From Bacteroidota bacterium (GTDB lineage Bacteria > Bacteroidota > Bacteroidia > Palsa-965), in NCBI GenBank assembly GCA_006218065.1, contig VBWE01000032.1, forward strand, positions 20,397 to 84,396: a DNA stretch of 64,000 nucleotides, given 5' to 3'. Positions 9,946-64,000 of this stretch are shown here, piece after piece (position 1 is the stretch's first letter; every line of letters starts with the position of its first letter). The position numbers and the translations under genes are program-made. Under the pieces are notes generated by a model. The model ran no database searches, was not told the origin of the DNA, and saw only the letters and a list, made by a program, of their open reading frames with translations.

Positions 9946-9994
9946 CTCGTCAGTCCGAGCGGAGTCGAGGGCAAGAGCAAGAGCAAGAGCAAGA
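9946..9994. repeat. CGAGCGCAGTCG-like palindromic repeat followed by a (GCAAGA)n hexamer tract
   Basis: ccctcgtcagtccgagcggagtcgaggg then gcaagagcaagagcaagagcaagag. Confidence 0.7.
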
Positions 9995-61628: not shown

Positions 61629-61713
61629 CTATGCTTTGGAAGCAGCATAGTTCCCGCGCATTTGTTTACGAGCATGAATAGAAATAACTTGCAGGAAGAA
61701 TGGTGCGTATTTT

Positions 61714-63381
61714 TTGCATTTGAAAATGATCTTCTACGAAACAAAGCCACAGAGGCACGGAGAACACGGAGGAACACAGAGAACTCCGTGTATCTCTGTG
61801 TTCTCCGTGCCTCCGTGGTTAAAAAAAACCGGCAGTTTTTTCTTTTTCTCTTTACTAACGTTTTCGCGGGTATATTCACAAAATCCCGGCGACCAGCTTT
61901 TTGCTGCACCAATCGTACACGACATCAACATCATTTTGCCGCAGAATAATTACTGGGATTCGCTGCTGTATTACAAAAGCTGGAACGATACCGCGGCGCA
62001 GTACATCTACATGCAGGGCGACGTGTTTATCGACGGAACGCCGGTGAACAGTTCCGGTGTGCGCCTGAAAGGAAATGCGAGTTACAATCATCCCGGCAAG
62101 AAAAAATCGATCGTGCTGAGTTTTAATGAATTCATCGGCGGGCAGGATTATGACGGTTTGCGTTCGTTCCATCTCGACAACAGCGCATATGATCCGACCA
62201 TGCTGCGCGAGAAAATCTACCTCGATATCCTGAATCGTAACGGCCTGCCGGCCCCGCGCTGCGCCTTCGCCCGCGTTTCGTACAACGGCGGGTACGTGGG
62301 CCTTTACAAAATCATCGAATCGGTGAACAAGCAATTTCTGCAGGCGCGTTTCGGCAACGATGAACGGAATCTTTTTAAAGGCGACCCGCATGCGCCGCTC
62401 ATTTGGGAAGGCAGCGCGCAGCAGGCGTATTATGATAATTTCGAACTGAAAACGAACGAATCCGTCAACGACTGGAGCGACCTCGTGCAACTGATCAATG
62501 TGATCAACAATTCGGGCACGAATTTTTCACCGCAGATCGAACAGGCATTCAACGTGCGGGATTACCTCCGTGCCTGGGCGGCGAACAATCTTTTCGGGAA
62601 TTACGATTCGTACATGTATCTCCCGCATAATTATTACCTCTACAACGATTCGCTTGCCGGGAAATTCCAGTGGATCACCTGGGATGTAGGCATCGTGTTC
62701 GGCGTGCTGCCGGTAGGTTTCCAGAACAACGAAGATTTTCCGCTCCTGTATTTGCCCGATCCGCCGCAAAACCTGCCGCTCAACAATAACCTGCTTTCCG
62801 TCGAGGCATACAAACAGGAATACCTGGACGATGTCTGCACTTTTTTCAATAACGACCTGGTTCCGTCGCGGCTTTTTGCGGTCATCGACAGCCTCGCAGC
62901 GGTAATCCGTCCGCACGTGTATGCCGAACCTGACGGAAACCAGATGTACACCGAGCAGCAATTCGAAAACAATATCGGTTATGGCGGTGTGAGTTCCTGG
63001 CTCGTTTTCCAGATTCCCGGCCTGAAAGATTTTATTTCACAGCGCCGCGGAAAAGTCTCCGCACAGCTCTGCGACATGGGCTGGAGTTGTATGCTGGGGC
63101 AGAGTTTCGCCGGTTTGTCCGACGACCAGGTGATCAGTATTTATCCCAATCCCGCTTCCGAGAAAGTTACGATCAGTTACGTCGCTCCGCAGTACGAAGT
63201 CCAGACGCTGTACGAACTCAGCGATATGCGCGGCCGCATCCTGCTCCGCGAAAACGTAGCCCTGCAGCCCGGCGAAACCAGCCGCACCATCGATATTTCA
63301 CGCCTGCGCGCGGGTGTGTATTATTTGCGGGTGATTGCGGGATGCAGGAATACGGAAAGAAAGATTGTGGTGGTGAGGTAG
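61714..63381 (+). CDS. CotH kinase family protein with T9SS type A sorting domain (5' part contains a repeat; true start uncertain)
   Basis: GVRLKGNASYNHPGKKKSIVLSFNEFIGGQDYDGLRSFHLDNSAYDPTMLREKIYLDILNRNGLPAPRCAFARVSYNGGYVGLYKIIESV; C-term ISIYPNPASEKVTISYV...LRAGVYYLRVI. Confidence 0.82.
   Translation: MHLKMIFYETKPQRHGEHGGTQRTPCISVFSVPPWLKKTGSFFFFSLLTFSRVYSQNPGDQLFAAPIVHDINIILPQNNYWDSLLYYKSWNDTAAQYIYMQGDVFIDGTPVNSSGVRLKGNASYNHPGKKKSIVLSFNEFIGGQDYDGLRSFHLDNSAYDPTMLREKIYLDILNRNGLPAPRCAFARVSYNGGYVGLYKIIESVNKQFLQARFGNDERNLFKGDPHAPLIWEGSAQQAYYDNFELKTNESVNDWSDLVQLINVINNSGTNFSPQIEQAFNVRDYLRAWAANNLFGNYDSYMYLPHNYYLYNDSLAGKFQWITWDVGIVFGVLPVGFQNNEDFPLLYLPDPPQNLPLNNNLLSVEAYKQEYLDDVCTFFNNDLVPSRLFAVIDSLAAVIRPHVYAEPDGNQMYTEQQFENNIGYGGVSSWLVFQIPGLKDFISQRRGKVSAQLCDMGWSCMLGQSFAGLSDDQVISIYPNPASEKVTISYVAPQYEVQTLYELSDMRGRILLRENVALQPGETSRTIDISRLRAGVYYLRVIAGCRNTERKIVVVR
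61747..61818. repeat. Inverted repeat of CACAGAGGCACGGAGAACACGG type, inside the 5' part of the CotH ORF
   Basis: ccacagaggcacggagaacacggaggaacacagaga ... tctctgtgttctccgtgcctccgtgg. Confidence 0.85.
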
Positions 63382-63410: not shown

Positions 63411-63565
63411 CAAAACATTAAATAAAGAAAACTACCCGCCACTTCGAGCGCAGTCGGGAGTAAAAAACATTAAATAGGAAAAGCTAACCGTCAGTTCGAG
63501 CACAGTCGGGAATAAAAACATTAAACAGGAAAAACAACCCCGTCAGTTCGAGCGCAGTCGGGAAC
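63411..63565 (+). repeat. Three imperfect tandem copies (52-bp period) of an ACATTAAA...GTCAGTTCGAGCGCAGTCGGGAA unit
   Basis: CGAGCRCAGTCGGG cores begin at 63445, 63497 and 63549 (52-bp spacing), each of the first two followed by an aaaacattaaa-type segment. Confidence 0.85.
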
Positions 63566-63587
63566 AGGGGTTTTAAACACACTTTTT

Positions 63588-63929
63588 ATGCCATCTTACC
63601 GCCGCATCTATGTGTACATCCTGCTTTGTTCCGACGGAACTTATTACACTGGTGTAACCAACAACATTGATCCACGTCTCGCCGAGCATGAATATGGAAT
63701 TGACAAAGACTCTTATACATTTAAACGACGTCCGGTTGATTTGCAGTTTTGCGAAGCTTTCGACGCAGCCTGGAAAGCGATTGAGTTTGAAAAGAAAATT
63801 AAAAAATGGAGCAGGGGAAAAAAGAAAGCATTGATCGAAGAGAATTGGGATAAGCTCAAGGAACTATCTGTTTGCAGAAATAAGACGCACTATTTGAGGG
63901 ACGGGAGTGGGGAGGGGAAGATCGTATAA
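63588..63929 (+). CDS. GIY-YIG nuclease family protein
   Basis: RIYVYILLCSDGTYYTGVTNNIDPRLAEHEYG...SYTFKRRPVDLQFCEAFDAAWKAIEFEKKIKKWSRGKKKALIEENW; GIY (VYI), YIG (YTG), Arg and Glu positions present. Confidence 0.92.
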   Translation: MPSYRRIYVYILLCSDGTYYTGVTNNIDPRLAEHEYGIDKDSYTFKRRPVDLQFCEAFDAAWKAIEFEKKIKKWSRGKKKALIEENWDKLKELSVCRNKTHYLRDGSGEGKIV

Positions 63930-63934
63930 AACCG

Positions 63935-64000
63935 TGTTCTCGACTGCGCTCGAACTGACGGTTAGCTTGAACTATTGAGAAAGTATAATCGACTGCGCTC
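63935..64000 (-). repeat. Inverted copies of the 63.4-kb repeat downstream of the GIY-YIG gene (runs off window)
   Basis: gttctcgactgcgctcgaactgacggttagctt is the near-exact reverse complement of aagctaaccgtcagttcgagcacagtcgggaat; a second core begins at 63990. Confidence 0.85.

Follow-up and report, generated by a model that had tools for sequence, protein, structure and literature searches.

What is a small nuclease gene doing between inverted arrays of a single repeat? This question is raised by one end of the window, that is, the whole 64,000-nucleotide stretch of DNA from a Bacteroidota bacterium that was analysed here. An earlier note, made from the letters alone, had seen in it a GIY-YIG nuclease gene enclosed by its own repeat, and had likened this to the REP/RAYT arrangement with a different nuclease fold. 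In the known REPtrons, GTAG REPs are accompanied by RAYT/TnpAREP transposases, which are HUH enzymes of the IS200/IS605-like type (PMC8266576, PMC3733652).

The GIY-YIG locus and its repeat arrays

The product of the gene contains a GIY-YIG domain (PF01541, E = 9e-15), and the gene lies between the arrays listed in Table 1, in agreement with the earlier note: on the left there are three direct units with a core spacing of 52 bp, and on the right at least two cores in the opposite orientation, belonging to units with a period of 49 bp, the first of which is an exact inverted core. A repeat common to both sides had also been claimed, and it was recovered as an inverted pair of 40 nt that is 88% complementary (63473-63512 / 63937-63976). 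The first left unit carries CGCCA in place of a GTCA tag. Most copies from other genomes have GTCGA, in place of which all three left units have GTCGG. The related solitary copy that had been placed near 9946-9975 was likewise found. A search of Rfam gave no match at the window repeats.

The window ends where its contig ends (C53, 84396 bp). The reverse complement of a second contig, C54, opens with an exact 34-nt overlap of the window end and contains further minus-strand copies of the repeat, 49 bp apart. This result implies that the right array is real, that it continues beyond position 64000, and that the array itself broke the assembly.

Table 1. Position of the GIY-YIG gene, its flanking repeat units and the solitary repeat copy in the window.
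Feature	Position	Strand	Remarks
Left repeat unit 1 (52 bp)	63412..63463	+	core TTCGAGCGCAGTCG at 63443-63456; degenerate tag
Left repeat unit 2	63464..63515	+	GTCA tag ~63490; core TTCGAGCACAGTCG at 63495-63508
Left repeat unit 3	63516..63573	+	core TTCGAGCGCAGTCG at 63547-63560; nearest to the gene, outward tag
GIY-YIG nuclease gene, 113 aa	63588..63929	+	PF01541
Right repeat unit 1, inverted	63937..63976	-	core 63941-63954; outward tag (TGAC)
Right repeat unit 2, start	63989..64000	-	cut at contig end; goes on in C54
Solitary motif copy GTCAGTCCGAGCGGAGTCGA	9949..9968	+	same motif as the nuclease-flanking repeats

Directly 5' of the repeats there is a CotH-kinase gene with a type 9 secretion sorting tail (window 61714-63381). 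A second dispersed inverted repeat, CACAGAGGCAC...GTGTTCTCCGCCTTTGTGG, is present at window ~61690-61900 and at ~660-725 of the C54 reverse complement; near the start of the CotH gene it is translated in frame as PQRHGEHGGTQR.

Anatomy of the repeat and its copies in the source genome

The motif comprises a tag, (T/C)GTCA, and a short hairpin, which together read GTCA-[4 bp]-GAGC-nn(n)-GTCGA-[4 bp]. We gathered 197 unique cores near homologous genes without any stem or tag requirement. GTCA was located exactly 8 nt 5' of the core in 165 of them, and stem pairs 3 and 4, the outer positions of the arm, were complementary in 92% and 87% of the cores; several types of base pair contributed, and shuffling lowered the values to 30% and 33%. 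Beyond the 4-bp arm complementarity fell to shuffle level, and the GA...GA step, where standard pairs are impossible, was invariant. The position of the tag and the covariation of the arm therefore define the unit as an unpaired tag, a covarying 4-bp arm, a GA...GA step and a small loop. By nearest-neighbour rules single units showed no stable DNA fold in comparison with shuffles (z near 0); inverted repeat pairs fold as one long hairpin (-43.5 kcal/mol, z = -17).

The earlier note had advised a search of the genome for palindromic, intergenic copies. In the source genome the pattern GTCA-N3-7-GAGC-N2-4-GTCGA has 58 copies versus one for the reversed control, most of them in intergenic, short-frame stretches: the median length of the longest frame was 89 aa over the REPs and 304 aa at control positions. 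The copies that were read include eight inverted pairs of 73-89 bp, and solitary REP pairs without the gene are common. The genome also harbors a second GIY-YIG paralog (C58:6784), bracketed by a related repeat, CGTCACGCTGAGCGGCAGTCGAAG, and two Y1/HUH-type transposase (Y1_Tnp) genes, which have no REPs alongside.

Linkage of gene and repeat among homologues

The repeat is associated with the gene and is oriented outward from it. Eighty homologous GIY-YIG loci were chosen by protein similarity alone, and in the 74 with readable flanks the motif stood beside the gene in 65 (on both sides in 49 and on one side in 16). Several of the nine motif-less loci show a longer-loop version by eye. A general lack of flanking repeats among orthologs, which the earlier note had named as refuting its idea, was thus not seen, with the reversed-sequence control of the motif scan near zero (2 matches in the 80 loci). 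The density of the motif was 3.75/kb at 400 bp or less from the gene versus 0.099/kb elsewhere in the same 80 loci, a 38-fold difference. In a motif-free test, the best repeat shared by left and right flanks had a median score of 24.5 versus 10 in 267 displaced controls (maximum 17), and 52 of the 80 loci exceeded the 99th percentile of these controls. The tag of the nearest REP pointed outward in 56/61 cases upstream (p = 6e-12) and in 49/58 downstream (p = 9e-8). REPs were also present at 11 of 12 further loci, found by protein match in own-family and class-wide genomes, one of which is probably the L102 record; in the five genomes compared by eye, the loop type flanking the gene is a main loop type of the genome.

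In L066, L070, L105, L136, L138 and others, the C-termini of many of the proteins consist of translated repeat (GFDSAQPD, HPSTSSG, HPERSEG); here the end of the gene and the downstream REP overlap.

At the level of whole genomes, a close homolog was present in 14 of the 24 Bacteroidia genomes that hold 10 or more repeats (repeat-rich), as against 18 of the 85 that hold fewer, with an odds ratio of 5.2 (p = 8e-4) from a statistic that ignores relatedness among the 109 genomes. Repeat number is thus associated with the gene and not independent of it, as the earlier note's refuting condition would have had it, although the other ten repeat-rich genomes have no close homolog. Two of these ten contain decayed REP-linked GIY-YIG genes (L204, L217). 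G045, a genome of the class sample, has 240 repeat copies and no free-standing GIY-YIG gene, its only such sequences being UvrC and a fusion of 460 aa. Gene-less repeat-rich genomes would be explained if the enzyme was lost once the repeat had spread, in parallel with the RAYT loss reported in E. coli strains; another enzyme would also explain them.

A second REP-bearing clade and REP-free relatives

A typed consensus of the alphaproteobacterial small GIY-YIG proteins was used as a probe and matched 39 records of a plasmid collection, 15 of which were picked for diversity before their flanks were looked at. Hairpins tagged with CGTC, TGTC or CCTC were found beside the gene in all 15 loci, a few of them counted by eye, at no more than ~200 bp from the gene and on both sides in 13 (downstream only in the other two). 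The hosts include Rhizobium, Sinorhizobium, Azospirillum, Neisseria, Aeromonas and others, and examples of their REPs are CGTCATCCTCGGGCTTGACCCGAGGATCCA in S. meliloti and CGTCATTCCCGCGCAGGCGGGAAT in N. gonorrhoeae; the dRS3-type REPs of Neisseria are among these gene-flanking repeats. CCTC is the tag in Methylobacterium and R. tumorigenes, CGTC in proteobacterial loci and TGTC/CGTC in Bacteroidota, and the repeat is of the GA type in Methylobacterium and at one Sphingomonas locus.

The REP-linked proteins have their fold and catalytic motifs in common with UPF0213/YhbQ. However, no REPs were found beside E. coli yhbQ, B. subtilis yazA, the Listeria homolog or a Sphingomonas homolog between rnc and era, nor alongside uvrC, a housekeeping GIY-YIG gene. 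On a poorly resolved tree the REP label was clustered (6 changes vs 11.9 when shuffled), YhbQ, YazA and the Listeria homolog branching together as a separate REP-free group and two other clades bearing REPs. Comparison of the window protein with phage and plasmid sequences gave distant homologs only.

L161 (Shinella) and L151 (Azospirillum) each represent a GIY-YIG gene between sufB and sufC, and the two genes have different REP types. Another GIY-YIG subfamily adjoins tRNA-Ser, tRNA-Val and tRNA-Ala genes, and is surrounded there by partial copies of tRNAs (L034, C41:145366; L036 and L038, C64:20590 and 21022; L039, C12:169191), and L203, L205 and L207, from other Bacteroidia, resemble these loci; this subfamily is perhaps a tRNA-targeting mobile element.

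Empty sites

REP, gene and REP are present or absent as one unit. The comparison of strains for empty sites, also recommended by the earlier note, yielded two clean cases in otherwise collinear regions. In G062, a member of the Bacteroidota, a 408-bp REP-GIY-REP block is inserted between trmH and an agmatinase-like gene, and in five congeners these two genes are contiguous, with neither block nor REPs. The second case is the sufB-sufC interval of A. lipoferum 4B, which holds the gene with a REP pair on each side; this insert, REPs included, is absent from A. ramasamyi, A. oryzae, Azospirillum sp. B510, A. argentinense and A. thermophilum, and the flanks of the empty site of A. ramasamyi are 97% identical to A. 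lipoferum 4B. Close homologs often occupy a common site, but at 72-82% identity many do not; two Mucilaginibacter homologs with 82% identity are at different sites. Together, the empty sites and the mostly common sites of close homologs imply that the block moves, but seldom. With regard to target-site duplication, the outer flanks of the loci matched no better than shuffled pairs, and the 8-bp ATTGATTA on either side of the G062 block may be coincidence.

A DDE or HUH insertion sequence was considered and rejected, as the GIY-YIG gene is the only one between the repeats and there is no target-site duplication.

The protein and the proposed mechanism

Y10, Y20, G22, R30, H34, E68, K72 and W74 are invariant in the alignment of homologues, and the catalytic residues among them (Y10, Y20, R30, H34 and E68) are invariant in 47 sequences. 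The solved structures nearest to the predicted model of the window protein (pLDDT 86.8) are UPF0213 proteins, followed by the structure-specific nuclease Slx1. Enzymes of the GIY-YIG family should hydrolyse DNA with no covalent intermediate, and DNA joining is not known for them; joining would therefore rest on host repair or replication.

In our judgement the gene and its repeats probably constitute a REPtron-like mobile unit, in which a UPF0213-type GIY-YIG protein acts as the dedicated REP nuclease in replacement of the HUH transposase. Of the mobilising role put forward in the earlier note, the movement is supported by the presence or absence of whole REP-gene-REP blocks at collinear sites, and we infer the nuclease action on the REPs, its specificity and the route of movement. 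The protein would recognise the tag and the extruded hairpin in single-stranded or cruciform DNA, as Slx1 does branched DNA, and would cut at the outward-facing GTC(A) tags. The E. coli TnpAREP depends on two elements of its REP, the tag and the mismatch in the middle of the stem (PMC8266576), and by analogy the arrangement here suggests that the GIY-YIG protein may read elements of the same kind. The cut would free or expose the whole block (~400-500 bp) or, alternatively, gene-less inverted REP pairs (73-89 bp, REPIN-like). Replication or repair by the host would copy or join these pieces into new intergenic sites, where no target-site duplication would be left. Inheritance of the gene would then be mostly vertical, at one site, and it is the short copies lacking it that would multiply.

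Alternatively, REP arrays could be landing pads, the gene moving by other means and ending in, or being tolerated in, REP clusters. Many loci have multi-copy arrays on both sides, and REPs are known as targets of insertion sequences (PMC1525189). We consider this reading unlikely, since the congeners in both empty-site cases are devoid of REPs as well as of the gene, the nearest REPs are fixed in outward orientation, and gene-less solitary REP pairs are common. Somewhat less likely still is a free-standing homing endonuclease that cleaves alleles lacking its gene, into which recombination then copies it, with the REPs as terminators or by-products. GIY-YIG is a classical homing endonuclease fold, and a free-standing small ORF that is present or absent at fixed sites is in line with such an enzyme, but the insertions occur at many unrelated sites, and homing would leave unexplained why hairpins like the flanking ones are spread over the genome without the gene. 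That the protein is a housekeeping UPF0213-like repair nuclease, which trims REP cruciforms and adjoins REPs for regulation, is very improbable: its nearest structures are UPF0213 and Slx1, and the annotation of E. coli YhbQ names a DNA damage response nuclease, yet yhbQ and yazA, which are genuine UPF0213 genes, lack REPs, as does the Listeria homolog, and REP-linked genes are present or absent between close species.

Relation to REPtrons and to CGTC REPs

In its anatomy and distribution the gene-repeat system resembles a REPtron, but it is not a RAYT. As in REPtrons, the hairpin is imperfect, its mid-stem mismatches are conserved, and it is preceded on the 5' side by a tag tetranucleotide; the enzyme gene, usually low copy, has REPs on its flanks, and REPs also occur between genes as short inverted pairs. 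The analogy drawn by the earlier note is thus well supported, including the difference in fold. RAYT identity was ruled out, as the enzyme is a PF01541 GIY-YIG nuclease and not an HUH (Y1) tyrosine transposase, and the tag is GTC(A), here GTCA, and not GTAG. Moreover, the gene block is present or absent between species, whereas no mobility of tnpAREP has been reported (PMC8266576).

Di Nocera et al. (2013) defined a class of CGTC REPs, including the Neisseria dRS3 and the Rickettsia RPE-4/6 repeats, and named A. lipoferum, S. meliloti, Neisseria and Gramella among its hosts; these REPs were concluded to be without a dedicated transposase, and no enzyme gene was reported (PMC3733652). The repeats described here resemble that class in having a CGTC, TGTC or CCTC tag followed by a hairpin, in occurring mainly as head-to-head pairs between genes, and in spanning Alphaproteobacteria, Neisseria and Bacteroidota, and such repeats adjoin GIY-YIG genes in A. 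lipoferum, S. meliloti and Neisseria. The 8-9 bp stem starting with AT, the 4-5 nt loop and the CCA tail that mark the class are present in most copies from Rhizobiales, Azospirillum and Neisseria, whereas in the Bacteroidota repeats the arm is of 4 bp with a GA/GA mismatch step, and the CCA tail is absent. Our literature searches, which covered open-access papers, found no paper linking GIY-YIG genes with REPs, RAYT, dRS3 or CGTC repeats.

We tentatively raise the wider possibility of a widespread class of mobile elements, in which a hydrolytic GIY-YIG nuclease and not a transposase might spread hairpin-ended elements. Such a class would explain the CGTC REPs, and its range would take in Bacteroidota, Pseudomonadota and Cyanobacteriota at the least. 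CGTC REPs occur in many bacteria, including Neisseria and Rickettsia, and were reported without an enzyme of their own; the pairing of GIY-YIG gene and REP points to the long-missing partner enzyme of this large bacterial repeat class, and a consistent gene partner makes its spread directly testable. If true, a second, unrelated nuclease fold would serve REP mobility, which would suggest a route of DNA transposition without a transposase.
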